Shown here piece after piece: positions 31,645 through 54,128 of a stretch of 64,000 nucleotides of DNA. A program made the translations under genes and the position numbers. The notes under the pieces were generated by a model that was not told where the DNA came from, searched no databases, and saw only the letters and a program-made list of their open reading frames with translations. This DNA comes from Candidatus Ozemibacter sibiricus. GTDB taxonomy: Bacteria; Muiribacteriota; Ozemobacteria; Ozemobacterales; Ozemobacteraceae. Within the stretch, counting starts at the first letter, position 1, and each line of letters begins with the position of its first letter. The stretch lies in NCBI GenBank assembly GCA_003327425.1, contig QOQW01000003.1, forward strand, positions 186,001-250,000, in the 5' to 3' direction.

Positions 31645-31842
31645 TCAGCGCTTGATGCGCAGGAGCCGGATGTTGTTGACCATGTAGCACTTCTCGTGCA
31701 CCGGGCAGTCGAAGCATTTCTGCTGCTGCTCGGGCCGGTCGATCTTCATCGATTCGAACGTCATGCCCGTGGTGGCCCACTTTCCGTAGTAGTCGGTACC
31801 GAAGCACTTGGGCATGGAAACCTGGGGAGTGGGAAGGGACAT
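31645..31842 (-). CDS. 65-residue cysteine-containing protein
   Basis: This short protein of unknown function contains Cys13 and a C-F-D-C-P-V-H-E-K-C cluster (Cys43, Cys46, Cys52). The spacing could bind zinc or an Fe-S cluster. A good Shine-Dalgarno, AGGAG 8 nt before the ATG, supports expression. It lies between the pdp-dgt-chemoreceptor operon and the divergent radical SAM cluster, about 195 nt from the first radical SAM start. Whether it belongs to either is unknown. The spaced cysteines and the Shine-Dalgarno argue against a chance reading frame. Confidence 0.6.
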   Translation of the reverse strand: MSLPTPQVSMPKCFGTDYYGKWATTGMTFESMKIDRPEQQQKCFDCPVHEKCYMVNNIRLLRIKR

Positions 31843-32036
31843 GGTGGTATCTCCTGAATCGTTGGCGTTGAAGATATCGTGACTGGGGGGCCGACCGGCG
31901 GGCCGGACCGGCGGCCGGCGGTTGGCATCCCCGGTCGCCTACTATACACCAGATTCCCTCCCCAGGAAAAGTGCCGCCGGCAGGATTCCTGGTGTATCAT
32001 GCCTCCGAACCGCACTGCGGTTGGGAGAATGTCCCC
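31843..32036. promoter_or_regulatory. Divergent intergenic region with -10-like boxes on both strands
   Basis: A minus-strand TATAGT (31946-31941), with a poor -35 (TTTCCT) 17 nt upstream, could serve the 65-residue gene. A plus-strand TATCAT (31995-32000) lies about 37 nt before the radical SAM start and has no recognisable -35. This may point to an activator-dependent promoter for the cluster. Purine- and pyrimidine-rich tracts at 31880-31935 show no clear symmetry. Confidence 0.35.
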
Positions 32037-33467
32037 GTGCGACCCGATCGGCCCTACACCTACCTATCCACGACCACCGGCATGTGCCGGGCCTGCCGTG
32101 ATCTCGTCACCGCGCGGCTGATCGAGCGCGGGGGCGCGGTCTTCCAGCAGAACCTGTGCCCGCGGTGTGGGCTCTCCGAGGCCCTGGTCGCCGAGGACTT
32201 CGCGTGGTATGCCCGGACGCTGGCCACCGTCGTCCGGCTGCATCCGCCCCGCCAGGAAGGCCATCCCGTCCAGCTGGGCTGTCCACACGACTGCGGCCCC
32301 TGCGCCTTCCACGCCGGCACCTGCCACCTGCCCGTGTTTTCCATCACCAACGCCTGCGAACTGGCCTGCCCGATTTGCTTCACCTTCAACCGTCCCGACC
32401 GGCTCTACCACATGGAACGAGAGGAACTGGCCGTCCTGCTCGACCGGCTGCTGGCCCGCACCGGACCGGTCGACCTGATCAACCTCACCGGCGGCGAACC
32501 ATTCCTGCATCCGCGCCTGTTCGACCTCATCGCCGAGGCGACCGCCCGCCCGGAGATCGGTCGCATCACCGTCAATACCAACGGCCTCCGCCTGGCTCGG
32601 GAACCGGACCTGGCCAGGCGTCTGGCCGACCTGGGAGCCTATGTCATCCTGTCGTTCGACACCTTCGAGCCGGCCACCTCGATCCGGATTCATGGGCGCG
32701 ACCTCGTGGCCGCGAAACGGCAGGCCCTCGACGCCCTGCAGGCGGCCGGCGTGGGCGTGACCCTGCTGCACGTCCTGATTCCCGGGCTCAACGAGCGGGA
32801 GTTCGGGCCCCTGCTCGACCTGGCCCTGGCCACTCCCGTGGTCCGCAGCATCACGGTCCAGACCATGACCTACACGGGAGCCGGCGGGGGCGCCTTCGCG
32901 CCGCGCACCCATCTACCCCTCGACCGCGCCGCCCGCCTCATCGAAGAGGCCACCGGCGGCCGCCTCCGCCGCGCCTTCTTCCGGCCCCTGCCGACGGCGC
33001 ATCCCCTGTGCTACCAGATCGCCTATGCCTTCAAAGCCGGCGACCGTCTGTTCGATTTCGGCGAGGTCTTTTCGCCCGATGAGTTCGAGCGTCTCCTGGG
33101 TCCGGGCTACCTGATGCGCCCGACCGACGACACCGCCGATCTCTTCCAGGACGCGCTCAACCGGCTCTGGGCCAGGAACGGCGATCCGGCCCTGCTGGCC
33201 AGCTTCCGTCGGACCATCGACGCTCTCTTCCCCCCGAGCGGCCCCCGCCTGACGCCGGCCCAACGGCAGAAGATCGGGGAAGCCCAGGTGCTGACCGTCT
33301 ATCTGCACGCCCATATGGACGAAGACAATTTCGATGTGGCGCGGGTCTCGACCTGCCCCGACCAGGTTCCCGACTCGGCCGGCCGCTTGATTCCCGCCTG
33401 TGCGTACAACCTCTTCTATCGCCGGCAGGATCCCCGGTTCTGGCATGGAAAGGATGCCCCCTCATGA
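32037..33467 (+). CDS. Radical SAM protein, Tes/GDGT-MAS-like family, copy 1
   Basis: The product is about 476 residues. Its layout matches that of archaeal tetraether synthase-type radical SAM enzymes: an N-terminal metal-binding C-R-A-C ... C-P-R-C pair, a C-P-H-D-C-G-P-C motif, the radical SAM C-x3-C-x2-C (C-E-L-A-C-P-I-C), G-G-E-P, and a C-terminal H-M-D ... F-D-V-A-R-V ... C ... P-A-C-A-Y-N signature. In the P-L-P-C-S-H-P motif of its neighbour it reads P-L-P-T-A-H-P, so one probable cluster ligand is missing. The GTG at 32037 is preferred (GGGAG 9 nt upstream); an in-frame GTG at 31971 is possible. It overlaps copy 2 by 4 nt. Family members join or methylate unactivated sp3 carbons of lipids; the substrate here is inferred only. 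Confidence 0.75.
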   Translation: MRPDRPYTYLSTTTGMCRACRDLVTARLIERGGAVFQQNLCPRCGLSEALVAEDFAWYARTLATVVRLHPPRQEGHPVQLGCPHDCGPCAFHAGTCHLPVFSITNACELACPICFTFNRPDRLYHMEREELAVLLDRLLARTGPVDLINLTGGEPFLHPRLFDLIAEATARPEIGRITVNTNGLRLAREPDLARRLADLGAYVILSFDTFEPATSIRIHGRDLVAAKRQALDALQAAGVGVTLLHVLIPGLNEREFGPLLDLALATPVVRSITVQTMTYTGAGGGAFAPRTHLPLDRAARLIEEATGGRLRRAFFRPLPTAHPLCYQIAYAFKAGDRLFDFGEVFSPDEFERLLGPGYLMRPTDDTADLFQDALNRLWARNGDPALLASFRRTIDALFPPSGPRLTPAQRQKIGEAQVLTVYLHAHMDEDNFDVARVSTCPDQVPDSAGRLIPACAYNLFYRRQDPRFWHGKDAPS

Positions 33468-34885
33468 CCGGCCCGTCCCTCCCCCCGCTCGGTCAGTTGA
33501 CCGTCACCCGTTCGGTCTGCGCGACCTGCCGCCGTCTCGTCCAGGCCCGAGTCGTGCGACGCGTCGATGGCATCTGGTTCGAAAAGTTCTGCCCCGACCA
33601 CGGCCGGCAGGACGTCAAAGTCGCCGATGATGCCGAAGCCTACCTCGACGCCCACCGGTACCATCGCGTGGCCTCGCGCCCGCTGGAGTTCGCCACCGCC
33701 TGGCGCGGCCGATGTCCTGACGATTGCGGGCTCTGTCCCGAGCATGAACAGCATGTCTGCATGCCGATCATCGAAATCACCGATCACTGCGACATGCACT
33801 GCCCCATTTGCCTGGTACAGAACGCCAACTCATGGCACATGACCCGGGCCGAGCTCGAACGGCTCCTCGACCGCCTCATCGCGGCCGAGGAACGCATCGA
33901 TGTCGTCAACCTCTCCGGCGGCGAACCCACCTGTCATCCGCAGTTCCGAGAGATGGTCGAAGCCTGCCTGGCCCGCCCCGAGATCTTGCGGGTCAGCGTC
34001 TCGACCAACGGCCGCCATCTGGTCGGCGACGACGCGCTGCTGCGCTTCCTGGCCGAGCGCCGGGTGGTGGTCAGCCTGCAGTTCGACGGGACGGAACCAG
34101 GCTACCGGCAGGCGCTGCGCGGCTGCCGCGACGCTCGCCTCGACCTGCTCGACCGCCTGACCGCGCTCGAGGCCCCTTGCTCGCTCACCTTCACCCTGGC
34201 CCCGGCCGCCCCCGAGGCCGCCCTGGCCGAAGCGGTCGAAGCCCTGTTCACCCGCCCCAACGTGCTCAGCCTGATGATCCAGCCGGCGGCCTATGTCGGC
34301 CGCGGCCAGCGCTTCGGCGCCACCCAGAGCCGACGGATCTTCATGCCTGAGGCGATCGACCGGGTGGCTCGCGCCTCGCGCGGCCGCGTTCGGCCGGGCA
34401 ATTTCTCGCCCCTGCCGTGCAGCCACCCGAACTGTTTCTCGCTGTCGTTCTTCCTGCGAGCCCCTGATGGCACCTTCGTCTCTCTGAAGGAGCTGTTCGC
34501 GATGGAAACCTACCTCGATCTCATCCGCAATCGCACGCTGTTCGGCACCGACCCCGAGAATTTCGGGAAGATCGAAGCGGCGGTCTACGACCTGTGGTCG
34601 GGCCCGGCCGCGCTCGCCCCCGATTCCGAAAAGGCCCTGGGCGCGGTCCGCCGGCTGCTGCGCCAGGTCCAGTCCTCCTGCCCTGGTGGCTGCTTCGAGC
34701 CGGCTCATCTGCTGGCGGTCGCCGAACGCCAGGTCAAATCCATCTTCGTCCATGCCTTCATGGACCCAGGGACCTTCGATCTGACGCGGGTCCGGAAATG
34801 CTGCCAGGTCTACCCGTTGCGAGACGGCCGATTCGTCCCCGCCTGCGTCTACAACGTGCGCGGCCGGTCCGCCCCGGCCGCCTGA
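33464..34885 (+). CDS. Radical SAM protein, Tes/GDGT-MAS-like family, copy 2
   Basis: This 473-residue paralogue of the preceding protein shares the same order of motifs. An N-terminal C-A-T-C ... C-P-D-H-G pair is followed by C-P-D-D-C-G-L-C-P-E-H and the radical SAM motif C-D-M-H-C-P-I-C. G-G-E-P, P-L-P-C-S-H-P-N-C and a C-terminal F-M-D-P-G-T-F-D-L-T-R-V ... C ... P-A-C-V-Y-N complete the series. All expected cysteines of the family look present, so it may carry several Fe-S clusters. In archaea such enzymes couple two lipid tails; bacterial relatives include proposed membrane-spanning-lipid synthases. It starts inside the previous stop (ATGA). The family resemblance is from motif memory, not from a search. 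Confidence 0.78.
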   Translation: MTGPSLPPLGQLTVTRSVCATCRRLVQARVVRRVDGIWFEKFCPDHGRQDVKVADDAEAYLDAHRYHRVASRPLEFATAWRGRCPDDCGLCPEHEQHVCMPIIEITDHCDMHCPICLVQNANSWHMTRAELERLLDRLIAAEERIDVVNLSGGEPTCHPQFREMVEACLARPEILRVSVSTNGRHLVGDDALLRFLAERRVVVSLQFDGTEPGYRQALRGCRDARLDLLDRLTALEAPCSLTFTLAPAAPEAALAEAVEALFTRPNVLSLMIQPAAYVGRGQRFGATQSRRIFMPEAIDRVARASRGRVRPGNFSPLPCSHPNCFSLSFFLRAPDGTFVSLKELFAMETYLDLIRNRTLFGTDPENFGKIEAAVYDLWSGPAALAPDSEKALGAVRRLLRQVQSSCPGGCFEPAHLLAVAERQVKSIFVHAFMDPGTFDLTRVRKCCQVYPLRDGRFVPACVYNVRGRSAPAA

Positions 34886-34968: not shown

Positions 34969-35706
34969 ATGCTGTTGCAGGATCGGACCGCGTTCGTCAC
35001 CGGGGGCAGCGGGGCGGTGGGCAGCGCCATCGTTCGCACCTTCGTCAAGGAAGGGGCGCGCGTGGCGTTCAGCTACCGCGATCACGCAGACCGAGCGCAG
35101 GCCCTGGTCGCCGAACTGGAGGCCGGAGGCGCGACGGTGCGGGCATACCCCCTCGACGTGCTCGATGGCCAGGCGGCTCAGGCTCTCGACCGCCAGATCG
35201 AACAGGAGATCGGACCGGTCGACATCCTGGTCAACAATGCCGGCCTGACCCAGGTGATGCCCTTCGCCCTGATCGAAGAAGAAGATTGGGACCAGGTCAT
35301 GGACATCAACGTCAAAGGCACCTTCCTGGTGACCAAGGCGTTCCTGCGGGGGATGATCCGACGGCAGCGCGGCGCCATCATCAATCTGGGCTCGCTGGCC
35401 GGCATGCGCATTCTCGAGGTGCCTGTCCATTACGCCACCGCCAAGAGCGCGATCATGGGGTTCACCCTGTCGCTGGCCCGCGAGGTGGCGCGCTACCAGA
35501 TCCGGGTCAACGCGGTCATTCCCGGCATGCTGAGCGCCGGCGTCGGGCTGAATGTGCCAGACAGGCAGAAAGAAGAGTACAAGCGGTACTGCACCCTGGG
35601 GCGGGTCGGCACCCCCGAGGAGGTCGCCGATCTCGTCGTCTTCCTGGCCAGCGAGCGGTCGAGCTACATCAACGCGCAGGGCATCTACATCGATGGCGGC
35701 ATCTGA
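34969..35706 (+). CDS. FabG-like 3-oxoacyl-ACP reductase (SDR)
   Basis: The 245-residue short-chain dehydrogenase has T-G-G-S-G-A-V-G (residues 11-18), N-N-A-G, a catalytic Ser in L-G-S-L-A-G and Y-A-T-A-K. The C-terminus carries the Y-I-D-G-G-I ending typical of FabG. It would reduce a 3-ketoacyl-ACP to the 3-hydroxy form with NAD(P)H, matching the ketosynthase and dehydratase encoded 7 kb downstream. AGGAGG lies 7 nt before the ATG. General SDR alternatives cannot be excluded, but the setting favours a ketoreductase for the cluster. Confidence 0.82.
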   Translation: MLLQDRTAFVTGGSGAVGSAIVRTFVKEGARVAFSYRDHADRAQALVAELEAGGATVRAYPLDVLDGQAAQALDRQIEQEIGPVDILVNNAGLTQVMPFALIEEEDWDQVMDINVKGTFLVTKAFLRGMIRRQRGAIINLGSLAGMRILEVPVHYATAKSAIMGFTLSLAREVARYQIRVNAVIPGMLSAGVGLNVPDRQKEEYKRYCTLGRVGTPEEVADLVVFLASERSSYINAQGIYIDGGI

Positions 35707-35848
35707 CCACGCGGCCGGGAACCGCCTTAACAGCGAGCTTTCGTCACCGACGGCCAGCACCGAGCCGGGCGAGGCCGGCCGGAGAGACACCGGACCGGCG
35801 ACTGCGCGACCGGCCGACGCAGAGGGCGCCCCGGTGGCCGCTGCTGCC

Positions 35849-36415
35849 ATGACCCTGGCGGCGCAGCGGGCCGCGTGGGCCGCCTGGCGGGCCGGGCCGC
35901 AGGATCGCCCCTTCCATCTCGAGCGGCGGCCCGAATGGTGCGTGTGCGACGTGCTCTTCCCCGGCCGCCGGCATGAACTGTGGCGGGCGCTGGTCGGCCT
36001 GGGGGTGTTCGTGGCCATGTGGCTGCCGGCCTCCACCTTGCGCGTCATGCTCCTGCGTTGGCTGGGAGTACGAATCGGGCGGGGCGTCTACATCGCGCCC
36101 GGGGTCTTGTTCGATCCGCTCTTCCCCGAGTTGATCGAGCTCGAAAACGGTGTCTTCCTCGGCATGGGCTGCCGACTGCTGACCCACGAGTACACCACCA
36201 CCCACCTGCGGATCGGCCGGGTGAAAGTCGGGCGGGGCGCCGTCATCGGCGGCTGGGCCACCATCCGGTCGGGGGTCACGCTCGGAGCCCGGGCCATGGT
36301 GGGCTTCCACAGCTTCGTCAACCGCGATGTCCCCCCCGACACCACGGTCGTCGGCACGCCGGCCCGTCCCCTGCCACCCCGGACCCCGGCCGGGTCGGGG
36401 AAAAACTGTCGGTAA
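35849..36415 (+). CDS. Left-handed beta-helix (hexapeptide) acyltransferase, copy 1
   Basis: This product of about 188 residues has one hydrophobic segment near residues 40-60 and then hexapeptide repeats forming a left-handed beta-helix, with V-G-R-G-A-V-I-G and a terminal V-V-G-T-P-A-R. Such proteins usually move acetyl or longer acyl groups from CoA or ACP. The start is uncertain. An ATG at 35693 overlaps the reductase gene but the intervening residues look noncoding, and 35849 lacks a clear Shine-Dalgarno. It shares D-P-L-F-P and other motifs with the beta-helix protein that ends the cluster, so the two are paralogues. Confidence 0.7.
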   Translation: MTLAAQRAAWAAWRAGPQDRPFHLERRPEWCVCDVLFPGRRHELWRALVGLGVFVAMWLPASTLRVMLLRWLGVRIGRGVYIAPGVLFDPLFPELIELENGVFLGMGCRLLTHEYTTTHLRIGRVKVGRGAVIGGWATIRSGVTLGARAMVGFHSFVNRDVPPDTTVVGTPARPLPPRTPAGSGKNCR

Positions 36416-36430: not shown

Positions 36431-36459
36431 TTGGTTGAGGGCCTGAGATCGGGTATCAT
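36431..36459 (+). promoter_or_regulatory. Internal promoter for a predicted leaderless mRNA
   Basis: TTGGTT (36431-36436) and TATCAT (36454-36459) are 17 nt apart. The ATG at 36467 follows 7 nt after the -10, the same geometry as at 26878-26914. An ATG overlapping the -10 itself (36458) is therefore unlikely to be the start. Confidence 0.55.
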
Positions 36460-36466
36460 GACGGGC

Positions 36467-37579
36467 ATGGGATTCGTCGGGAATTACCTGCGCAATCTGG
36501 GGGCGATCGCCATCGGACGGACGCCGGCGGCGCCGCTGATGTTCTCGTGGTATGTGACGCATCGCTGCGGGCTGAACTGCGCCTATTGCTGCGACGGAGA
36601 CGGGAAGCGGTTCGCCGAGGAACGGATTCCCGAACTGACCACCGCCGAGGCCCGCCAGTTGATCGACCGACTGGCGGCCGCCACCGACACGCTCGATCTC
36701 ACCGGCGGCGAGCCGCTGCTGCGCCCCGACCTCGAGGACCTGCTCGCCCACGCCCGGCAGCGGGGCATGCGCACGGTGCTCAATACCAAGGGCATCGGCC
36801 TGGCCGACCGGCCTGACCTGTGGCGCTTCACCGATGTCCTGGTCCTCAGCCTCGACACGCTCGATCCGGGGCGGCTGGCCAGCCTGATCGGCCGCGATCG
36901 GGCCACGGCGCAGGCGGTGCTGGACGGGCTGACCTGCGCGCTGGCCCAGCGGGGAAGGCCGCTCCCCGACGAGGGGAAGGGCGAGACCGCCGTCGCCGGA
37001 CCGCCGAGCCTGGTAGGCCTGCTCCGCCGGCGGCCCGGCCGCAGGGCAAGGCGCCACGGCCCTCTGCTCGTCCTCAGCGTGGTGGCTACCCCTACCAACC
37101 TCGATGATCTCGCCGCGGTGCTCGCCCTGGCCCAGCGAGAACGCCTGGGCTTCCAGATCTCGCCCGAGATCGTCGGCACCCATCCCAACCCGGCCCTGCG
37201 CGGTCACCTCGGCTATCGGGCCCTGTTGCGCCGGGTGCGCGCCGCCAAGGCCGCGGGCGCCGGGGTGCTGGGAGTCGAGGCCTACCTGCGCGGCATCCGC
37301 GACTTCCGGCGGTTCCATTGTCACCCGCTGCTGATGCCGGTCATCCGCCCCGACGGCCGCCTGTACTACCCCTGCCTGGAAAGCAAGAACGCCACGGTCA
37401 ACCTGCTCGACCACCGCACCTACGGGGAGGCCCTGGCGGCGGCCCGCCGCCTGACGCCCCGACGGCCGACCTGCGGCGACTGCTGCCACATCTTCTGCCA
37501 CATGGCCCTGTCGCTTCTGCAGCGGCATCCGCTGCAGGCCGCCCGGGAACTCCGCCTCTGGAGGCACCTCGATGCTTGA
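36467..37579 (+). CDS. Radical SAM enzyme with C-terminal cysteine cluster (third in run)
   Basis: The 370-residue product has the radical SAM motif C-G-L-N-C-A-Y-C near residues 35-42, G-G-E-P near 71-74, and a C-terminal cysteine-rich part (F-H-C-H, Y-P-C, C-G-D-C-C-H-I-F-C-H) that could hold an auxiliary Fe-S cluster as in SPASM/twitch enzymes. An Arg/Gly/Pro-rich insertion sits near residues 155-195. It differs from the two Tes-like proteins. The start at 36467 follows the leaderless promoter; no Shine-Dalgarno is needed. It overlaps the next radical SAM gene by 8 nt. The substrate is unknown; HpnH-like and peptide-modifying relatives are possible alternatives. Confidence 0.78.
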   Translation: MGFVGNYLRNLGAIAIGRTPAAPLMFSWYVTHRCGLNCAYCCDGDGKRFAEERIPELTTAEARQLIDRLAAATDTLDLTGGEPLLRPDLEDLLAHARQRGMRTVLNTKGIGLADRPDLWRFTDVLVLSLDTLDPGRLASLIGRDRATAQAVLDGLTCALAQRGRPLPDEGKGETAVAGPPSLVGLLRRRPGRRARRHGPLLVLSVVATPTNLDDLAAVLALAQRERLGFQISPEIVGTHPNPALRGHLGYRALLRRVRAAKAAGAGVLGVEAYLRGIRDFRRFHCHPLLMPVIRPDGRLYYPCLESKNATVNLLDHRTYGEALAAARRLTPRRPTCGDCCHIFCHMALSLLQRHPLQAARELRLWRHLDA

Positions 37580-38597
37580 GACGCTCGCCCGCGAACTGCA
37601 CTACCAGTACCGCTGCCTGCGGCTGGGGTGGGGGTTTCTGACGAAACGGTTCATCCACTGCAACCTGCAGGTCACCTATCGCTGCAACTTCGCCTGTCAG
37701 ATCTGCGACTTCTGGAAGACGCCGCCCGACCCCGCCGATGAACTGACCCTCGACGAGGTGCGGGTGATCGGCGAGAAGCTCCATCGGCTCGGCACGCTGA
37801 TCATCTCGCTGGCCGGAGGCGAGCCGTTGATCCGACGCGATCTCTTCGACATCATCCGCATTTTGAACGACTGGCACCATTTCCCGATCCTGATCACCAA
37901 CGGCTGGTTCGTCGAGGAAACGGTGGCGAAGGAGATTCTGCGGGCGGGTCTGCAGGAGATTTCGGTGTCGCTCGACTATGCCGATCCGGCCCGTCACGAT
38001 GCCCAGCGTGGCCGACCGGGATCGTGGGAGCGCGCCGTCCGCGCGCTCGAGCTGCTCAACCGGCACCGCCCCGACCGCCGGCACCGGGTCCACATGATCA
38101 CCGTGCTGATGGACGACAACCTCGATGAGATCGAGCCGCTGATCAAGCTTGCCCGCGACCTCGGCGTGACCTACATGGTCAATCTCTACTCCTGGAACCG
38201 CGGGACCAAGACGCGCCGACTGCCCACCGCGCCGGTGACGGCCCGCCTGCTGGCGCTGAAGCGTCGTTACCCCGAATTCATCACCCTCACCACCTACCTC
38301 GAACACCTCGATGAGGCCATCGCCGAGGGCGGCATCGGTCAGTGCCAGACCGGCCGTCTGCTGCTGAACATCGACCCGCGCGGACAGGTCGCCCGCTGCA
38401 CCGAAACCCTCGACCAGCCGGTCGGCAATATCCTGACCGACGATATCATGGACCTGCGAGCTCGCCTGCGCCGGGTGCAGCGCCGCCGCCCCTGCTCCCA
38501 GTGCTGGACCTCCTGCCGCGGGTTCGCCGAGAGCATGTACCGGCCTCCGCGGTGGCGGCAGTTCGTCGAGTTCTACCACTCGGTCAAACCGCACTGA
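37572..38597 (+). CDS. Radical SAM/SPASM-like enzyme (fourth in run)
   Basis: This 341-residue protein has C-N-F-A-C-Q-I-C near residues 38-45, G-G-E-P, and a C-terminal set C-Q-T-G ... V-A-R-C ... C-S-Q-C-W-T-S-C typical of a SPASM-type auxiliary cluster. It starts within the end of the previous gene (8-nt overlap), so the two radical SAM enzymes are likely made together. The next gene encodes an ICMT-like methyltransferase 6 nt later. The reaction is unknown. SPASM enzymes often act on peptides, but no precursor peptide is visible here, and small-molecule or lipid substrates are also known for related families. Confidence 0.8.
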   Translation: MLETLARELHYQYRCLRLGWGFLTKRFIHCNLQVTYRCNFACQICDFWKTPPDPADELTLDEVRVIGEKLHRLGTLIISLAGGEPLIRRDLFDIIRILNDWHHFPILITNGWFVEETVAKEILRAGLQEISVSLDYADPARHDAQRGRPGSWERAVRALELLNRHRPDRRHRVHMITVLMDDNLDEIEPLIKLARDLGVTYMVNLYSWNRGTKTRRLPTAPVTARLLALKRRYPEFITLTTYLEHLDEAIAEGGIGQCQTGRLLLNIDPRGQVARCTETLDQPVGNILTDDIMDLRARLRRVQRRRPCSQCWTSCRGFAESMYRPPRWRQFVEFYHSVKPH

Positions 38598-38603
38598 GCC
38601 GCC

Positions 38604-39293
38604 ATGAACGAGTTCATCCATCGCTACTGGCAGACCGCCGTCAACTTCGTGCTCGTCTTCGTGTTCCTGGATTACGGGTTCGGCATGAACCGGTGGCTCA
38701 TCACCACCTTCGGCGGTCCCGACTTCCTCTGGCTGGCCGACTACTTCCCCCGGCGACCCCACCTGGGAGTCGGCGCGGCGGCCGATTTCGTCGAGGTGGC
38801 GTTCTTTCTGCACAATCTCGTCTTCCTCGGCGTGATCCTGTTCCGGCAGGACCACCGGGCCATCGAGACCCGGGCCGGCCCCCAACTGGTGGCCTTGTTC
38901 GCCTTCTTCTCGGGCATGTGGTTCGTGCAGACCCCGGCGACCAGCCCGGCTCTGCTGCTGGCCTCCGATCTGGTCACCCTCGTCGCCCTGGTCTTCGGCA
39001 TGGGATGCCTGGTCAATCTGGGCCGCAGCTTCGGCATCCTGATCGCGGCGCGCACCATCAAGACCACCGGTCTGTACGGGATGATCCGGCATCCCATGTA
39101 TCTGTCCGACATCGTCTGGCGAATCGCCTACCTCCTGAAGAACCCCTGCCCGCGCAATCTCGTCCTGTTCGTGATCTCCAGTCTCTGCTATGTGGCGCGG
39201 GCGATCATGGAGGAGAACTTCCTCTCGCAGTTCCCCGAGTACCGGGAATACAAGGAACGCGTCCGGTACCGCTTCGTTCCTGGTGTCTTCTGA
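38604..39293 (+). CDS. ICMT/PEMT-like integral membrane methyltransferase
   Basis: The 229-residue membrane protein has about five hydrophobic segments. The C-terminal signature of isoprenylcysteine carboxyl methyltransferase-like proteins is clear: G-L-Y-G-M-I-R-H-P-M-Y (about residues 160-170), then E-E-N-F-L and F-P-E-Y-R-E-Y. Such enzymes use S-adenosylmethionine to methylate lipophilic carboxylates or phospholipid headgroups in the membrane. In this setting it may cap a lipid-like product or intermediate. It lies 6 nt after a radical SAM gene and 7 nt before the cysteine desulfurase gene, in one transcription unit. Confidence 0.85.
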   Translation: MNEFIHRYWQTAVNFVLVFVFLDYGFGMNRWLITTFGGPDFLWLADYFPRRPHLGVGAAADFVEVAFFLHNLVFLGVILFRQDHRAIETRAGPQLVALFAFFSGMWFVQTPATSPALLLASDLVTLVALVFGMGCLVNLGRSFGILIAARTIKTTGLYGMIRHPMYLSDIVWRIAYLLKNPCPRNLVLFVISSLCYVARAIMEENFLSQFPEYREYKERVRYRFVPGVF

Positions 39294-39300
39294 GGTCGGC

Positions 39301-40827
39301 ATGAGCGGGTGGTTCGATTGGCGGGAATGGCTTCAGCAGCTGAACTACCAGCCTCTGCTCTACTTCGATCATAACGCCACCACGCCGGTGGCGCCCGCGG
39401 TACGACGGGCCATGGCCGACGCTCTGGCCGGTGCTTTCGGCAACGCTTCCAGCCTGCACACCCTGGGCCGGACCTCGCGCGGCCTGGTCGAAACCGCCCG
39501 GCGAGCCGTGGCCGCCGAGTTGCGGGCACCCCCGGAACGGGTCTTCTTCACCAGCGGCGGGACGGAAGGCAACAACACCGTCATCAAGGGGGTGTTCGCC
39601 GCCCGGGGCGGCGGCCATGTCATCACGACCAAGATCGAGCACGAGTCGGTGCTCGGCGCCTGCCATCAGCTCGAGGCGCTGGGCGGGCGGGTCACCTACC
39701 TGCCAGCTGGCCCCGACGGCCGGGTGCGTTCCGATGACGTGCGGGCCGCCCTGCGCTCCGATACCATTCTGGTATCGGTCATGCACGCCAACAACGAGAC
39801 GGGCGTGATCCAGCCGCTCGAAGAGATCGCCGCCGTGACGCGAGCGGCGGGGGTGCCTTTGCACACCGATGCGGTCCAGACCTTCGGCAAGATTCCCACC
39901 GATGTCGAGCGTCTCGGCGTCGAGTTCCTGACGTTGACCGCCCACAAGATCAACGGCCCCAAAGGGGTGGGCGCCATCTACTGGCGGGGCACCGTTCCCT
40001 GCGTGCCGTTGATCTACGGTGGAGACCAGGAACAGAAGCAGCGGGCAGGCACCGAGGGGGTCCACCAACTGGTCGGTCTGGGCGTGGCGGCGCGGCTCGC
40101 CGGCGCCTGCCGCCCGACCGAGTTCGTCCGGCTGCGCGCCCTGCGCCGGCGGCTGGTGGCCGGCATCCGTCGTTTGTATCCGGCGGCGGTGATCAACGAA
40201 GCGGCACCCGACCATCAGCTGCCGGGCACCATCAACGTCACCTTCCCCGGCAAAAGCGGGTTGAGGCTGCTGGCCGGTCTCGATTGCTACGAGATCGCCG
40301 TCTCGATCGGCTCGGCCTGCACGGCCGACCGCATCGAGCCTTCGCACGTGCTGCTCGGCATGGGGATCAGCGAAGAACGCGCCCTGTCGACCATTCGCAT
40401 CAGTCTGGGCCGCACCACCCGCCGCCTTTCCGTCCTGTTCTTCCTGTGGGCGCTGGAACGGGTGCTGCGGAGCGACCCGCCCGGGTTCGCCTACCTCGAT
40501 CCCGCTCACCTGACCGCTGACGTGATCCGCTCGCCGCACACCTTCCTGATCGATCTGCGGTTCCCGCACGAGCGGCTGCTGGCGCCCAGCCTGCCGGGAG
40601 CCCGCGAATGGTCGCCCTTCGGGTTCGAGCGGCACCATGAAGAGATTCCGCGAGACCGGCGCGTCATCCTGATGTGCGCCACCGGCGCGTTGTCGACCGG
40701 AGCGGGCTATCGCCTGGCCATGGCGGGCCACCCCGACGTGCGGGTCGTCTTCGGCGGCTACAGCGCCTGGCGTGGTCTGTATCCCGATCTGCTCGATCAC
40801 CTCCTCAAGGAAAGGTCATCCGCATGA
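39301..40827 (+). CDS. Cysteine desulfurase-rhodanese fusion
   Basis: This 508-residue two-domain protein joins a class-V PLP-dependent desulfurase (about residues 1-390) to a rhodanese domain (about 410-505). The desulfurase shows Y-F-D-H-N-A-T-T, N-N-E-T-G, H-T-D-A-V-Q, the PLP lysine in T-A-H-K (Lys216) and the catalytic cysteine in S-A-C-T (Cys340). The rhodanese loop reads M-C-A-T-G-A (Cys459). It takes sulfur from cysteine and could relay it to the rhodanese cysteine. Placed after four radical SAM genes, a role in Fe-S cluster supply is likely, though sulfur insertion into a product is also conceivable. GAGG lies just upstream of the ATG. Confidence 0.88.
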   Translation: MSGWFDWREWLQQLNYQPLLYFDHNATTPVAPAVRRAMADALAGAFGNASSLHTLGRTSRGLVETARRAVAAELRAPPERVFFTSGGTEGNNTVIKGVFAARGGGHVITTKIEHESVLGACHQLEALGGRVTYLPAGPDGRVRSDDVRAALRSDTILVSVMHANNETGVIQPLEEIAAVTRAAGVPLHTDAVQTFGKIPTDVERLGVEFLTLTAHKINGPKGVGAIYWRGTVPCVPLIYGGDQEQKQRAGTEGVHQLVGLGVAARLAGACRPTEFVRLRALRRRLVAGIRRLYPAAVINEAAPDHQLPGTINVTFPGKSGLRLLAGLDCYEIAVSIGSACTADRIEPSHVLLGMGISEERALSTIRISLGRTTRRLSVLFFLWALERVLRSDPPGFAYLDPAHLTADVIRSPHTFLIDLRFPHERLLAPSLPGAREWSPFGFERHHEEIPRDRRVILMCATGALSTGAGYRLAMAGHPDVRVVFGGYSAWRGLYPDLLDHLLKERSSA

Positions 40828-42032: not shown

Positions 42033-42494
42033 GTGCGATTCTTCCTGATCGACCGCATCACCCGCTGGGATGTGGGAAAAACCGCGGAAGCCCGCAAGAA
42101 TGTGGCACTGAGTGAAGATTTCTTCGATGACCACTTCCCGCGGCGGCCGGTCATGCCCGGGGTGCTGATCATCGAAGGCATGGCCCAGCTGGCGGGCCTG
42201 TTGCTCGAAGCCAGCCTGCGCGCCCAGTTCCAGCGCGAGGCCAAGGCGATCCTGACCATCCTGGACAAAGTCAAGTTCCGCGACATGGTCAAACCCGGCG
42301 ACACGCTGATCTATACCACCGACGTGCTCTCGTTGAACGAAGTCAGCGGCAAGGCGGCCGTGCGCGCCACCCGCGAGGGCCGGCTGATCGCCGCGACCGA
42401 GATGATCTTCTCCTTCCGGACCGTCGACGATCCCACCCTCGAGCGACGGCGACAGGTTCTGCTCGATCTGTGGCGGGGAACCCCGGATGACTGA
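42033..42494 (+). CDS. FabZ-like 3-hydroxyacyl-ACP dehydratase
   Basis: The 153-residue hotdog-fold protein has the FabZ active-site layout: D-H-F-P-x3-P-V-M-P-G-V with His34 and I-E-G-M-A-Q with Glu48. It would dehydrate 3-hydroxyacyl-ACP. The start is GTG at 42033, supported by AGGAGGGAG about 6 nt upstream. It overlaps the ketosynthase gene by 8 nt. It is likely pathway-specific rather than the general FabZ, given its fused neighbours. Confidence 0.88.
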   Translation: MRFFLIDRITRWDVGKTAEARKNVALSEDFFDDHFPRRPVMPGVLIIEGMAQLAGLLLEASLRAQFQREAKAILTILDKVKFRDMVKPGDTLIYTTDVLSLNEVSGKAAVRATREGRLIAATEMIFSFRTVDDPTLERRRQVLLDLWRGTPDD

Positions 42495-45381
42495 TCCCAT
42501 CGTCATCACCGGCCTCGGGCTGGTCACCCCGCTGGGTCATGAGCCAGGAGAGGTGCTGACCCGGCTGCGGCGGGGCGAGACCGCCGCCTGCCCGCCCGCG
42601 CGGTTCGACCCGACCGGCTTCGCCTGCCCGCGGTACGCGCCGGTGACCACGCTGGAGGCGGAGCCCCTGCTCGGCGACGTCAAAACGCTGCGCCTGATGA
42701 ACCATGACGCGATCTTCGCGGCGGTGGCCGCCCGGCTGGCCTTGCGCGATGCCAACCTCACCCCCGGCAGGGATTACCCTCCCGAAATGATCGCCCTCTA
42801 CGGGGCCACCGGCCTGGCCGGCATCGCCCTGCCTGAAGTGGCCCCGCTCATTCAGCATTCGGCGGGAGAGGACGGCACGTTCGATCCGCTCCGGTTCGGG
42901 CGCCATGCCCTGCACCGGGTGCGCCCGACGCTCAGTTTCAAGATCCTGAGCAACATGCCGATCTGCTTCATCTCGATCTTCGAGCATCTGCAGGGTCCCA
43001 ACGCCGTCTACAACCCGTGGGAAGGGCAGGGCGCCCAGGCGATCCTGGCCGGTTGGGAAGCACTGCGCGAGGGGCGAGCCGACGCGGCCCTGGTCGGCGG
43101 ATGCGACGTCAAGGCCCACGAACTGGCCTTCATCAGCCTGCAACAGCAGGGCGTCTTCGAGAGCTGGACGACCGTGGGAACCGGCATCGTACCGGGCGAA
43201 GGCGCGGCGTTCCTGGTGCTCGAACGCGAAGCCCGGGCCCGCGCGCGCGGGGCCAGACCGTATGCCCGCCTGGCGGCAGGCGCCCTGGGCACGGTCCATC
43301 TGCCGCCGGTGTGGGCGGCGCCGCCGGCGGCCAGGGCGTCCGACCACCGCTCCGGCGCGACCGCAGCGGCATTCCCCCCTCGAAGCGAGCCCCACGGGGC
43401 GACGAAGACCAGCTCCCTCGCAACGCCTGAACGCTGCCCGGCGGCTCGTTCTGGACGCGAGAACGAACCAGGCGAGGAAGGGGGGGCCGGGGCGGCCATC
43501 GCTCGCCGCCTGGGCGGCCTCGTGCAGGCCGCTCTGGCCGACAGCGTCCACCCGCCCGGCGCGCTGATGTCGTCCGCCGATGGCGATCCCCGCTTCCAGC
43601 ATTGGGAAGAGGAGGCCCTGATTTTGGCCGGCCCTGGCGCGGCGCCGGCGCTGAGCTCGGCGGCCATCCGTCTGGCGCCCAAACCTGGGCTGGGCAATCT
43701 CTTCGCGGCGGCGACCCCGGTGCAGCTGGCCATCGGCGCGCTCGTGGTCCGCGAAGGGGCAGGTCCGGCCCTGGTCACGAGCTTCGGCTTCGGCTCGCAA
43801 CAGGCGGTCTTCCGCCTCGACCCCGCCTTGGCCGCCGCGCGCGCGCCGACCACCCGAGCGACCGCCGCCGCGACCGCACCGCCTCCTGGCACCGACGTCG
43901 CTGCGGCCTCGACCGCCCGCCCCGCCCCGCGCGCCGCACGGTCGGGGGAGGCCGAGCCTGCCGCCGACGGCACGGCCACCGCGGTCCACCACCCGGTCGC
44001 CCACCAGGATTCGCCGCAGGCAGAGCCGCTCCTTTTCCACCAGCCGACCGGTTCAGCCAGATCGACCGCGCCGACCGGCTCTTCCCCGATCGCGCGGCGG
44101 CGGGTCGTGGTCACCGGGCTCGGCCTCGTCGGGCCGCTCGGCAACGACCTGCCCACCTTCTGGGCCAATCTGGCGGCCGGCCGTTCCGGCACGGGCCCCC
44201 TCACCCTGTTCGACGCCTCTGGACTGCTGGTGAGCATCGGGGCCGAGGTGAAGGACTTCCCCGTCGAGCAGGTGCGGCAGTGGTTTCCAGCCGCGGCCCA
44301 GGACCGCGACCGCAAGGTGCTGCTCGGTCTGGCCGCCGCCCGTGAGGCCCTGCAGCAAGCCGGGCTCGCCGGCCCCGACGCCCGCTCGCGCCTGGCGCGC
44401 GCCGCGCTCCATGTCGGCGTCAGCCTCGAGGTGTTCTTCCTGGAGGATGTCACACCCCTGGCCCGACACGGGCCTGCCGACGGGGATCTGGGCCGCCGGC
44501 TGCTGAGCGGGCCGGCTGGTCGGTCGCCCTGGCAGACCCCGCTCGATCGGCTGGCCGAGGTGATCGGCGAGACCTATGGGGTGGGCGGACCGCGAGTGAC
44601 CAACTGTTCGGCCTGTGCCGCCGGCGCCATGGTCATCGGCGAAGCCTGCCTCGCCTTGCGGGCCGGCCGCGCCGACCTCGCCCTGGCCGGCGCCGCCGAC
44701 AGCATGCTCAATCCGCTGGGTCTGGGCGGGTTCAGCCTGCTGCGCGCCCTGTCAATGAACCACGAACGCCCCGCGGCGGCCTGTCGCCCGTTCGACGCCG
44801 CCCGCGACGGCACGGTGCTGGGCGAGGGCGCCGCCTTCCTCGTGCTGGAAACCCTCGACCACGCGCGGGCCCGCGGCGCCTCCATCCTGGCCGAGGTCCT
44901 GGGCTACGGCGCCAGCCTCGATGCCTTCCGGGTTTCCGATCCCGATCCCACCGGGCGCGGAGCCGTGCTGTGCATGCGGGCCGCCCTCGCCGACGCCGGC
45001 CTGTCCTCCGCCGGCATCGACGTGGTCAATGCGCACGGCACCGGCACTCCCAAAAACGACATCACCGAGACCCTGGCCCTCAAGGAAGTGCTCGGCCCGC
45101 ATGCCTACCGGATTCCCGTCCATGCGGTGAAGTCGATGACCGGCCACCTGATCGCCGCCAGCGGTGCCGTGGAAGCCGTCGTCGCCGTCCAGACCCTTCG
45201 CCATGGGCTCGTCCCGCCCACCATCAACCTCGAGATCCCCGACCCCGAGTGCGACCTCGACTATGTGCCGGGCCAGGCCCGTCGCGTGCAGGCGCGCACC
45301 GTCCTGTCCAACTCGTTCGCGTTCGGGGGTCAGAATGCCACCCTCATCTTCGGCGCCGCCCCGAAAGGAGATTCGCCATGA
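42487..45381 (+). CDS. Fused chain-length-factor-like / ketosynthase (964 aa)
   Basis: Two ketosynthase folds are joined in one reading frame. The N-terminal unit (about residues 1-455) lacks the catalytic triad: the nucleophile position in G-P-N-A-V-Y-N-P-W-E is Glu179, and G-L-G-N replaces the usual T-G-H. It also has a roughly 60-residue Ala/Ser/Arg-rich insertion near 275-340. After a Pro/Ala linker (about 455-535), the C-terminal unit is a complete FabF-type synthase with Cys710 (C-S-A-C), His850 (N-A-H-G-T-G-T) and His887 (M-T-G-H). This mimics the KSbeta/KSalpha pair of type II polyketide and aryl-polyene systems, but fused and in reverse order. It should condense malonyl-ACP onto an acyl chain, with the first unit setting chain length or structure. 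Confidence 0.87.
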   Translation: MTDPIVITGLGLVTPLGHEPGEVLTRLRRGETAACPPARFDPTGFACPRYAPVTTLEAEPLLGDVKTLRLMNHDAIFAAVAARLALRDANLTPGRDYPPEMIALYGATGLAGIALPEVAPLIQHSAGEDGTFDPLRFGRHALHRVRPTLSFKILSNMPICFISIFEHLQGPNAVYNPWEGQGAQAILAGWEALREGRADAALVGGCDVKAHELAFISLQQQGVFESWTTVGTGIVPGEGAAFLVLEREARARARGARPYARLAAGALGTVHLPPVWAAPPAARASDHRSGATAAAFPPRSEPHGATKTSSLATPERCPAARSGRENEPGEEGGAGAAIARRLGGLVQAALADSVHPPGALMSSADGDPRFQHWEEEALILAGPGAAPALSSAAIRLAPKPGLGNLFAAATPVQLAIGALVVREGAGPALVTSFGFGSQQAVFRLDPALAAARAPTTRATAAATAPPPGTDVAAASTARPAPRAARSGEAEPAADGTATAVHHPVAHQDSPQAEPLLFHQPTGSARSTAPTGSSPIARRRVVVTGLGLVGPLGNDLPTFWANLAAGRSGTGPLTLFDASGLLVSIGAEVKDFPVEQVRQWFPAAAQDRDRKVLLGLAAAREALQQAGLAGPDARSRLARAALHVGVSLEVFFLEDVTPLARHGPADGDLGRRLLSGPAGRSPWQTPLDRLAEVIGETYGVGGPRVTNCSACAAGAMVIGEACLALRAGRADLALAGAADSMLNPLGLGGFSLLRALSMNHERPAAACRPFDAARDGTVLGEGAAFLVLETLDHARARGASILAEVLGYGASLDAFRVSDPDPTGRGAVLCMRAALADAGLSSAGIDVVNAHGTGTPKNDITETLALKEVLGPHAYRIPVHAVKSMTGHLIAASGAVEAVVAVQTLRHGLVPPTINLEIPDPECDLDYVPGQARRVQARTVLSNSFAFGGQNATLIFGAAPKGDSP

Positions 45382-45846: not shown

Positions 45847-46407
45847 ATGAAATTCCGTGGACTCGACCGACTCACGGCCTGGGAAGCCTGGCGGACCGCC
45901 GTCGGCCGTAAGGCGGTCTCGTTCGAGGAATACTGCCTCCGGCAAGGGCTGGGGGAGCCCGAACGCCTGCCCGAATCGCTGGTGCTGCAGGCCGCGTTCG
46001 ATCTGGCCAATTGGCTGGTCATGCTGTCGAGCGACTACCGGCTGGCCGGCCGCCCGATCGGAGCGGAACAAGTATGCTTCCACCGGTTCCTCGGGCCCGG
46101 CCAGGCGATGACCGTGGCGGTCGCGGTACGCGAGAGGGCCGCCGACCGCCTCATCTTCGACGCCGTCGGCCGCGACGGCTCCCGCGAGATCTTCCATTGC
46201 GAGGCCGGGGAAATGGAACTCCTTCCCCTGCCCGATCTGGAAGACCCCGACGACCGCCGCACGCTGTTTTCCGAGATCTTCCACCCGGAGGGCGAGGCGG
46301 GGGCTTGCCCGGCTCCTCGCATCCAGCCAGGCAGCTCTCGCGCCACCACGGGTGAAGGCTCAGGACGAAGGACGACCTCCCCACTCCCCGAAGACCGCTC
46401 GCCATGA
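45847..46407 (+). CDS. Degenerate hotdog-fold dehydratase-like protein
   Basis: The 186-residue product aligns by eye with the FabZ-like protein 3.8 kb upstream. The motif order runs from E-E-Y through L-P-E-S-L-V-L-Q-A to a C-terminal strand set. The His of H-F-P is not seen and the Glu of I-E-G-M-A-Q is replaced by Gln (L-Q-A-A-F), so dehydration seems unlikely. It may be a binding or structural partner, or a thioester-binding protein. About 50 Pro/Ser/Arg-rich residues end the protein. GGAGGA precedes the ATG by about 10 nt. It overlaps the next gene by 4 nt. Degenerate DH subunits are known in aryl-polyene and polyketide clusters. Confidence 0.65.
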   Translation: MKFRGLDRLTAWEAWRTAVGRKAVSFEEYCLRQGLGEPERLPESLVLQAAFDLANWLVMLSSDYRLAGRPIGAEQVCFHRFLGPGQAMTVAVAVRERAADRLIFDAVGRDGSREIFHCEAGEMELLPLPDLEDPDDRRTLFSEIFHPEGEAGACPAPRIQPGSSRATTGEGSGRRTTSPLPEDRSP

Positions 46408-47120
46408 CCGAGACTTCTGTGCCCCCCGCCCCTCTTTCCGCCTCAGCAGAGGCTGCCCCTGGCCTGCCCCCTCCTCCCAGCGAAGTGGCAGAGGAACCGA
46501 GCGGCCGGTCCTCTTCTCTACCGCCGAGGGCGCCACGACGACGTCCGCCCGACGTCGTCTGCCGGGGCGACCCCGGCCCGGCTGGCCTCGCCCTGGCACG
46601 CTTCGTACGGCCCGGCTGCCCCGACCGCCTGTTCGAATATCACAGCGACATCCCCGAACCGGCCGACAACTGCCTGTGCTTTTTCGAATACGGCACGGCG
46701 GCCGGGATCGTCTACGCCTCTCTGCGCTATGCGCTGCTGTCAGCGGCTTTCGCCCAGCCGTTCTCGACCCCCAAACATCTCGCGCTGCGGCTGTTCGGAG
46801 CATCCATCCATCCCACGGCCTACCTGTCGCCAGACGTCGTCATCGATCCGTTGTTCCCCTCGCTGCTGACCGTCGAGGCGGGGGCCCTGCTGGGGTTCGG
46901 GGTGCGAATCGCCCTCCACGAGCATGGCGGCGCCCGGTTTCGCGCGGGGCGGGTCATCATCCGGCGCGGGGCCACGATTGGCGCCGAGGCCAGGATCGGG
47001 TGCGGGGTCGAGATCGGGGAGTTCGCCCAGGTGGCGGTCGGCGCCGTCGTCCTGCGCGACGTGCCCGCCCGGTCCATCGCCGTCGGCAACCCCGCCCGGG
47101 TCGTCGGCCATGTCGCATGA
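46404..47120 (+). CDS. Left-handed beta-helix (hexapeptide) acyltransferase, copy 2
   Basis: This 238-residue protein has a Pro/Ser/Ala-rich N-terminus of about 55 residues, a middle region with a hydrophobic segment near 100-120, and hexapeptide repeats in the last 110 residues (I-R-R-G-A-T-I-G, I-G-E-F-A-Q, V-G-N-P-A-R). It shares D-P-L-F-P and the following helix register with the acyltransferase at 35849-36415. It would transfer an acyl group, perhaps releasing the product from ACP. It is the last gene of the plus-strand cluster and starts inside the preceding stop (ATGA). Confidence 0.78.
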   Translation: MTETSVPPAPLSASAEAAPGLPPPPSEVAEEPSGRSSSLPPRAPRRRPPDVVCRGDPGPAGLALARFVRPGCPDRLFEYHSDIPEPADNCLCFFEYGTAAGIVYASLRYALLSAAFAQPFSTPKHLALRLFGASIHPTAYLSPDVVIDPLFPSLLTVEAGALLGFGVRIALHEHGGARFRAGRVIIRRGATIGAEARIGCGVEIGEFAQVAVGAVVLRDVPARSIAVGNPARVVGHVA

Positions 47121-53718: not shown

Positions 53719-53760
53719 CCGTGCGGCAAACCGGCCGGCGGGCCGAAAGGAAGGAGACTT

Positions 53761-54120
53761 ATGCGTTTCACGGTCGAAATCCGCGACGGGGTGCTGCTCG
53801 TTTCCCTGCTGGCCGACCTCACCTTCGACTGGTTCATGGAATTCGACGAACAGATCCGCCAGGCGCTGGCCCCCCAGGTGACCCACGGCATCCTCGATCT
53901 GAGCCGGGCCCACCACCTCGACAGTTCCGGGCTCGGCGTCATCGCCCGTCTCCACCGCGACCTGAAGGCCCGCGGCGGAGGTCTCATCCTGGCCGGCGTC
54001 GTCCCCCCCATCGACAACCTGCTCCAGATGGTGGGCTTCCACCATCACCTGCGGATGTATCCCACTCTCGAAGAAGCCCTGGCCACCCTGCGGCTCGCTC
54101 CCCGGACCCCCCAGAACTAG
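53761..54120 (+). CDS. STAS-domain anti-sigma-antagonist-like protein
   Basis: This 119-residue single-domain STAS protein has the phosphorylation-site motif H-L-D-S-S-G-L-G-V (residues 52-60), as in SpoIIAA/RsbV. Such proteins bind a kinase/anti-sigma partner or act in phosphate-controlled complexes. No RsbW-like kinase or sigma factor is adjacent. GGAAGGAG precedes the ATG. AGGAGG overlapping its stop codon serves the next gene, so the two are probably tightly coupled. Confidence 0.88.
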   Translation: MRFTVEIRDGVLLVSLLADLTFDWFMEFDEQIRQALAPQVTHGILDLSRAHHLDSSGLGVIARLHRDLKARGGGLILAGVVPPIDNLLQMVGFHHHLRMYPTLEEALATLRLAPRTPQN

Positions 54121-54128
54121 GAGGACGT

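Follow-up and report, generated by a model that had tools for sequence, protein, structure and literature searches.

Paired radical SAM proteins of the predicted tetraether synthase fold in a probable acyl-chain synthase cluster of Candidatus Ozemibacter sibiricus

Two adjacent genes of Candidatus Ozemibacter sibiricus, here called RS1 and RS2, encode radical SAM proteins that lie outside the tetraether synthase (Tes) clade and belong to a cluster of the FAS/PKS type, an arrangement found across several bacterial phyla. We give a probability of about one half to the reading that they are an ancient pair of Tes architecture within a type II FAS/PKS-like cluster, acting on the acyl chain of that cluster. 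The grounds are the predicted fold, the conserved residues, the family status, the pairing and the gene context, from which we infer the substrate, the product and the formation of a complex.

Results

The pair and its predicted fold

The window, i.e., the whole stretch of 64,000 nucleotides that was analysed (contig QOQW01000003.1, positions 186,001 to 250,000), contains both genes:

32037..33467, + strand: RS1 (copy 1), 476 aa, radical SAM protein with the predicted tetraether synthase fold
33464..34885, + strand: RS2 (copy 2), 473 aa, radical SAM protein with the predicted tetraether synthase fold

The initial annotation had described a tandem pair with a series of shared motifs, and this description was borne out, both reading frames being complete, with an overlap of 4 bases, and all the motifs being found. 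An alternative upstream start of RS1, a GTG at 31971, would give a protein of 498 aa, and the GTG at 32037, with GGGAG upstream, appears the likelier start. The N-terminal Cys pairs (Pfam Zn_ribbon_HMPTM) and the radical SAM domain scored above the Pfam cut-offs in both proteins. CxxxCxxC is present in both, while the other motifs read CPHDCGPC in RS1 versus CPDDCGLC in RS2, PLPTAHPLC versus PLPCSHPNC, and PACAYN versus PACVYN. The copies share 31% identity (214 bits, E 4e-63), and the nearest relative of the pair is in a Candidatus Riflebacteria MAG (75–77% identity). No in-frame TGA, which would specify the selenocysteine that is optional in TrsS, interrupts the RS1 or RS2 reading frame. Between a pyrimidine phosphorylase gene and the pair lies a 64-aa ORF on the - strand (31651-31842, containing CFDCPVHEKC) with no Pfam match.

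The best solved relative of both copies was MJ0619 (7tol), with E values of 2e-36 for RS1 and 4e-33 for RS2, well beyond a chance resemblance. AlphaFold models of the pair had mean pLDDT values of 84 and 88, and for both of them 7tol/7tom were the only structures that could be aligned across some 500 columns (TM 0.74–0.85; normalized by query length, 0.78 for RS2 and 0.83–0.85 for RS1). The Tes-like fold suggested by motifs in the initial annotation was upheld by these models, in which four domains are predicted over the full length of both copies.

Family status and phylogeny

With the NCBIfam model for Tes (NF045702), the pair scored 181.6 and 171.2 bits, below the curated cut-off of 450. 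The best-scoring NCBIfam model was that for TrsS (NF045646), with 200.7 and 215.6 bits, also below its curated cut-off of 490. The Tes cut-off was passed in 34 acidobacterial genomes. In a 49-sequence tree computed under a mixture model, RS1, RS1b, RS2, and RS2b each formed one side of a branch, with support of 100/100 for RS1, 98/95 for RS2, and 100/100 for Tes. The RS group was split from Tes and the TrsS-like proteins with 100/99, in a sampling of RS, Tes, and TrsS-like proteins, the last all below the TrsS cut-off, and a 138-sequence tree agreed in placing the pair outside the Tes clade (SH-aLRT 100). The assignment to the Tes family made earlier stands in part: the four-domain fold and the C-terminal Cys residues were confirmed, but the curated cut-off was missed and both copies fell outside the Tes clade at the 100/99 split.

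The idea that one product of a recent duplication has since decayed was ruled out, as RS1 and RS2 are two old orthologous families. Among 284 genomes from the phylum of L017, a Myxococcota MAG, none was found to encode a TrsS above the cut-off. No relatives were found on viral contigs, and a plasmid search returned distant relatives only.

Pairing and co-inheritance

Both RS1 and RS2 were found in 17 of the 40 genomes of the phylum, adjacent in 15 of them, and neither in a genome of the same genus (G017). No other full-length Tes-fold protein was found in the present genome, which also contains a 1554-aa DUF2229 frame (L250, G000:C50:40829-41467) that may be of the Ger/PlsA kind involved in ether lipids. 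Planctomycetota, Myxococcota, and a single Acidobacteriota MAG have related pairs. Among 26 RS1/RS2 pairs, the subclasses of the partners always matched and their distances were correlated (0.89; 0.96 for the 18 type-a pairs), a correlation that includes vertical descent and does not separate functional coupling from it. This co-inheritance shows signs of functional coupling and, going by the sequence comparisons, the two are an ancient pair of paralogous families, inherited jointly.

Two variants of the pair were observed. Around position 8365 of L017, an RS1-like remnant (59 bits) stands beside RS2, the partner having been lost or frameshifted. In L065 (7839-9778) and its relatives L063, L064, and L066, all of one genus, a B12-binding radical SAM protein and a methyltransferase adjoin the pair.

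The PLPC Cys and the C-terminal cluster

In the MJ0619 study (PMC9433317, Lloyd et al.), the rubredoxin-like site is formed by C9, C12, C33, and H36, the N-terminal cluster is bound by C73, C77, C80, and a His, the radical SAM motif is CX3CX2C, and the C-terminal cluster has a labile Met439. Candidates for the Cys ligands of the C-terminal cluster were taken from their conservation in the alignment: Cys338, Cys455, and Cys470 do not vary among 30 Tes-clade sequences, of which MJ0619 alone has a Cys at position 456. The corresponding codons are the following:

32994..32996, + strand: RS1 Thr codon at the place of the RS2 PLPC Cys (alignment)
33009..33011, + strand: RS1 Cys of HPLC, equivalent to MJ0619 Cys338, candidate ligand, kept (alignment)
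33354..33356, + strand: RS1 Cys equivalent to MJ0619 Cys455, kept; the next codon, at the Cys456 place, is Pro
33399..33401, + strand: RS1 Cys of PACAYN, equivalent to MJ0619 Cys470, kept
34418..34420, + strand: RS2 PLPC Cys319, without exception Cys in the RS2 family, with Ser at this place in MJ0619
34799..34804, + strand: RS2 Cys446-Cys447, equivalent to MJ0619 Cys455-Cys456

It had been proposed that, if the PLPC Cys ligates an auxiliary cluster, copy 1, with Thr at this place, may have lost a ligand and the pair may work as a complex. Such a loss was not supported. As far as the alignment shows, the PLPC Cys corresponds to a non-ligand Ser of the solved MJ0619, and the residue at that spacing is Ser or Thr in 30/30 Tes-clade sequences. 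The Cys338 equivalent is a different residue, five residues past the PLPC Cys (HPxC) and present in copy 1, and the full set of Cys338/455/470 equivalents was aligned in both RS1 and RS2 of this genome. In 23/30 Tes sequences a Cys directly precedes HP, one place nearer Cys338, but this position varies between Cys, Ala, and Ser, and it is therefore an unlikely ligand there. Loss of a Tes-type ligand was ruled out by the alignment with MJ0619 and 137 relatives, by which copy 1 is judged to have lost none. At the fourth rubredoxin position (His36), RS1 has Cys in place of His, as do 10/19 RS1 sequences.

Residue patterns were tabulated over 138 sequences, including RS1, RS1b, RS2, RS2b, Tes, and TrsS-like proteins. 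The PxPC Cys is present in all RS2 (23/23) and RS2b (12/12) and in none of the RS1 sequences (0/19), a difference whose direction, loss in RS1 or gain in RS2, is not given by the unrooted trees. Cys456 follows the same pattern (35/35 RS2/RS2b, 0/19 RS1), and residue 459 is Tyr throughout RS2 and Val in RS1. The triad Cys338/455/470 is complete in 23/23 RS2; in RS1, Cys338 is kept in 19/19 and Cys455/470 in 18/19, the exception (L014) ending in a disrupted frame. At the place of Met439, all 63 RS1/RS1b/RS2/RS2b sequences, this pair included, have His. Because this invariant His replaces a labile Met, the C-terminal cluster of RS1 and RS2 is probably held otherwise than in Tes.

PxPC and Cys456 occurred together in 77 of the 138 sequences; 54 had neither, seven had Cys456 alone, and none had PxPC alone. 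PxPC and the triad are separable, since 34 sequences hold the former without the latter and 60 the reverse, and TrsS-like relatives keep PxPC and Cys456 while having mostly lost the triad. As PxPC is never seen without Cys456 and both persist in TrsS-like proteins, they are probably a separate pair outside the Tes cluster set. A tree-aware test gave the same direction in 2–3 of five independent pairs and the opposite in 0, too few for significance; the pattern is one of clades, and RS2 or the TrsS-like proteins may use alternative ligation. The PxPC Cys of RS2 may ligate or react with something, because it is invariant in the RS2 family and accompanies a second Cys (C456).

The TrsS-like clade (e.g., L099, L104, and L185) keeps PxPC and Cys456 and has most or all of Cys338, Cys455, and Cys470 replaced, for which reason these proteins are probably without a Tes-type C-terminal cluster. 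Selenocysteine at the PxPC or CC place was also considered and rejected, the in-frame TGA of L090, the one such relative that was read, lying elsewhere. L090 (G158:C293:66267-67604), a planctomycete Tes-fold protein with a single in-frame TGA (CCAPGES*GPDE), is a candidate selenoprotein.

The gene cluster

The rest of the cluster follows the pair in the same orientation and reaches position 47120:

34969..35706, + strand: FabG-like short-chain dehydrogenase
35834..36415, + strand: hexapeptide-repeat acyltransferase
36431..37579, + strand: third radical SAM protein of the cluster
37572..38597, + strand: fourth radical SAM protein of the cluster
38604..39293, + strand: ICMT/PEMT-like membrane methyltransferase
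39298..40827, + strand: NifS-like cysteine desulfurase with a fused rhodanese domain
between the NifS-rhodanese and FabZ-like dehydratase genes, same strand: adenosine-deaminase-like gene
42033..42494, + strand: FabZ/FabA-like dehydratase
42487..45381, + strand: CLF-like half and canonical ketosynthase (KS) in a single fused protein, 964 aa
45378..45782, + strand: acyl carrier protein (ACP), 134 aa, with a conserved C-terminal extension
45847..46407, + strand: second, divergent FabZ-like dehydratase; its homologue in L054 matches FabA
46404..47120, + strand: second hexapeptide-repeat acyltransferase

A type II polyketide/aryl-polyene-like set (KS and CLF-like partner, ACP, reductase, dehydratase) is present in full, and none of the core cluster genes was recognised as an enoyl reductase. 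In the CLF-like first half of the fused protein, Glu replaces the active-site Cys; the fusion is split into separate genes in several relatives. The second FabZ-like dehydratase itself had no Pfam match. The C-terminal extension of the ACP, a feature untypical of plain ACPs, is conserved across 16 related loci. Outside the cluster, a 2254-aa ORF (53721-60485) has no Pfam family match in its first 1660 residues.

This gene set is seen again in Riflebacteria and Planctomycetota (L213, L226), often arranged as DH-KS-KS-SDR-nitroreductase-ACP-SDR-DH-RS1-HEX-(rSAM-rSAM)-RS2, and the b-type loci of Myxococcota have a similar gene set. Within 12 kb of the pair, a KS or ACP was found at 21/30 loci and some FAS-type gene at 28/30, as detected by HMMs whose training set consisted partly of these same loci and whose sensitivity for them is therefore inflated. 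Within the same distance, no FAS-type genes were found at 11 Tes and 12 TrsS-like control loci. Two of the pair loci, L048 and L053, lack FAS-type genes over the 12 kb, and in the genome of L048 the cluster resumes farther on (L049). The clusters of this phylum share a conserved NifS-rhodanese, and the NifS gene was not seen in most of the planctomycete and myxococcal clusters holding RS1/RS2.

Discussion

Each protein of the pair is predicted to have the Tes architecture of a rubredoxin-like site, an N-terminal [4Fe-4S] cluster, a radical SAM cluster, and a C-terminal [4Fe-4S] cluster. Judging from the neighbourhood, the KS/CLF, FabG, and FabZ-like enzymes would assemble an acyl chain, with the ACP of the cluster as its carrier. 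RS1 and RS2 would then hold this chain in a hydrophobic tunnel of the Tes type, where SAM-derived radicals could form a bond at unactivated carbons, either by C-C coupling or by cyclisation, via the C-terminal cluster as in Tes. Because of the Tes fold, the kept cluster set, and the acyl-synthase context, bond formation on the acyl chain, with the labour divided between RS1 and RS2, seems the most likely function. The division is suggested by the consistent differences around the C-terminal cluster (PxPC Cys, Cys456, and Tyr459), and most likely each protein would catalyse a half-reaction of its own, or the two would act one after the other. A more specific version, in which they act as an obligate hetero-complex that represents a divergent Tes-fold branch and makes radical C-C (or C-S) bonds on a chain built and carried by a dedicated type II KS/CLF-ACP synthase, is tentative and somewhat unlikely; if true, it would point to bacterial lipids of a class not yet described, spread over at least four phyla.

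Other explanations were weighed against bond formation by the pair on the chain of the cluster. It is unlikely that RS1 and RS2 make ordinary Tes/Mss-type membrane-spanning lipids (iso-diabolic acid, brGDGT-type) from bulk phospholipids, with the cluster being incidental. The Tes-type fold, the fact that the genome was found to encode no other full-length Tes-fold protein, and the DUF2229 frame, if it is of the Ger/PlsA kind, are in its favour, but the pair is outside the Tes clade, has His for Met439, is nearly always paired, and has a dedicated ACP/KS cluster, unseen around Tes loci. The proposal that the C-terminal auxiliary cluster has the PLPC Cys as a ligand, and that copy 1, having lost it, works only as the partner of copy 2, is quite improbable: although PxPC is invariant in RS2/RS2b and missing from RS1, and TrsS-like proteins keep PxPC and Cys456 as possible alternative ligands without the triad, Ser (MJ0619) or Thr stands there in 30/30 Tes sequences, the Tes-conserved Cys are complete in copy 1, and the 34 sequences with PxPC and no triad, like the 60 of the reverse kind, argue for separable features.

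Similarly doubtful is sulfur insertion, i.e., C-S bond formation resembling that of lipoyl synthase, with the auxiliary cluster being spent and the NifS-rhodanese supplying sulfur. This would agree with the substrate-carbon to cluster-sulfur bond through which Tes passes (PMC9433317), and with the conservation of NifS-rhodanese in the clusters of this phylum. However, NifS is unseen in most of the planctomycete and myxococcal clusters with the pair, and it may simply provide Fe-S clusters for four radical SAM proteins. Of equally low probability is an oxygen-independent desaturase or dehydrogenase system that yields a polyene chain with no C-C bond formation. In general radical SAM chemistry, an olefin would result from hydrogen abstraction if an electron then passes to an auxiliary cluster, and the core cluster resembles polyene synthases in having no recognised enoyl reductase. 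Nevertheless, a KR/DH pair gives double bonds without any radical enzyme, an SDR or the nitroreductase could be the enoyl reductase, and to our knowledge the Tes fold is so far associated with coupling chemistry.

The coupling of unactivated carbons is, as far as we know, among the hardest reactions of lipid biosynthesis, with few enzymes known for it. A second, paired branch of the Tes fold, tied to its own acyl-chain synthase, provides a concrete gene set for expression. It also calls for caution, since some of the bacterial "Tes homologues" tallied in GDGT-producer surveys may not be tetraether synthases.

Comparison with known systems

RS1 and RS2 resemble archaeal Tes (GDGT-MAS, MJ0619; 7tol, 7tom), which joins the chain ends of membrane lipids, and the bacterial proteins above the Tes cut-off in their full-length fold and in the conserved Cys of the rubredoxin-like site, the N-terminal cluster, the radical SAM motif, and the C-terminal cluster. 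Tes consumes two SAM for each C-C bond; the C-terminal cluster stores the first radical, and the reaction passes through a bond between substrate carbon and cluster sulfur (PMC9433317). Unlike Tes, the pair shows about 22% identity to it and forms a separate clade, with His for Met439 and, in RS1, no Tyr459; RS1 and RS2 are also usually paired, within an acyl-synthase cluster. RS2 shares PxPC and Cys456 with TrsS and TrsS-like proteins, but both RS1 and RS2 keep Cys338/455/470, and TrsS-like loci are without such cluster genes. The bacterial membrane-spanning lipid synthase Mss is said to share the catalytic architecture of Tes (PMC13274423).

With the type II synthases of aryl polyenes, the cluster has in common a KS-CLF pair, a FabG-type reductase, FabZ-type dehydratases, and an ACP and, in some relatives, an MMPL-type transporter. 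It differs from them in its four radical SAM genes and in its dehydratase, which matches FabA (E 1.5e-25) rather than ApeI (PF22818, E 0.26).

The "ladderane" FASII clusters of anammox bacteria (Kuste3335-3352 and Kuste3603-3608; PMC4790861, PMC2649909; Javidpour et al., Rattray et al.) are similar in combining ACP, FabG, FabZ, KS, and a non-canonical KS with adjoining paired radical SAM genes. Ten genomes, taken as anammox by their HZS-alpha-like proteins of about 810–830 aa, yielded no RS1 or RS2, weak matches being confined to the radical SAM core, and identity with the Kuste3342/3343 pair, which has a similar gene order, was ruled out in these ten. FabZ-KS-KS groups were present in three inferred-anammox genomes searched with the ketosynthase. 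A survey reported "ladderane" clusters in many non-anammox phyla (PMC9902471); some of those clusters may be of the RS1/RS2 kind.
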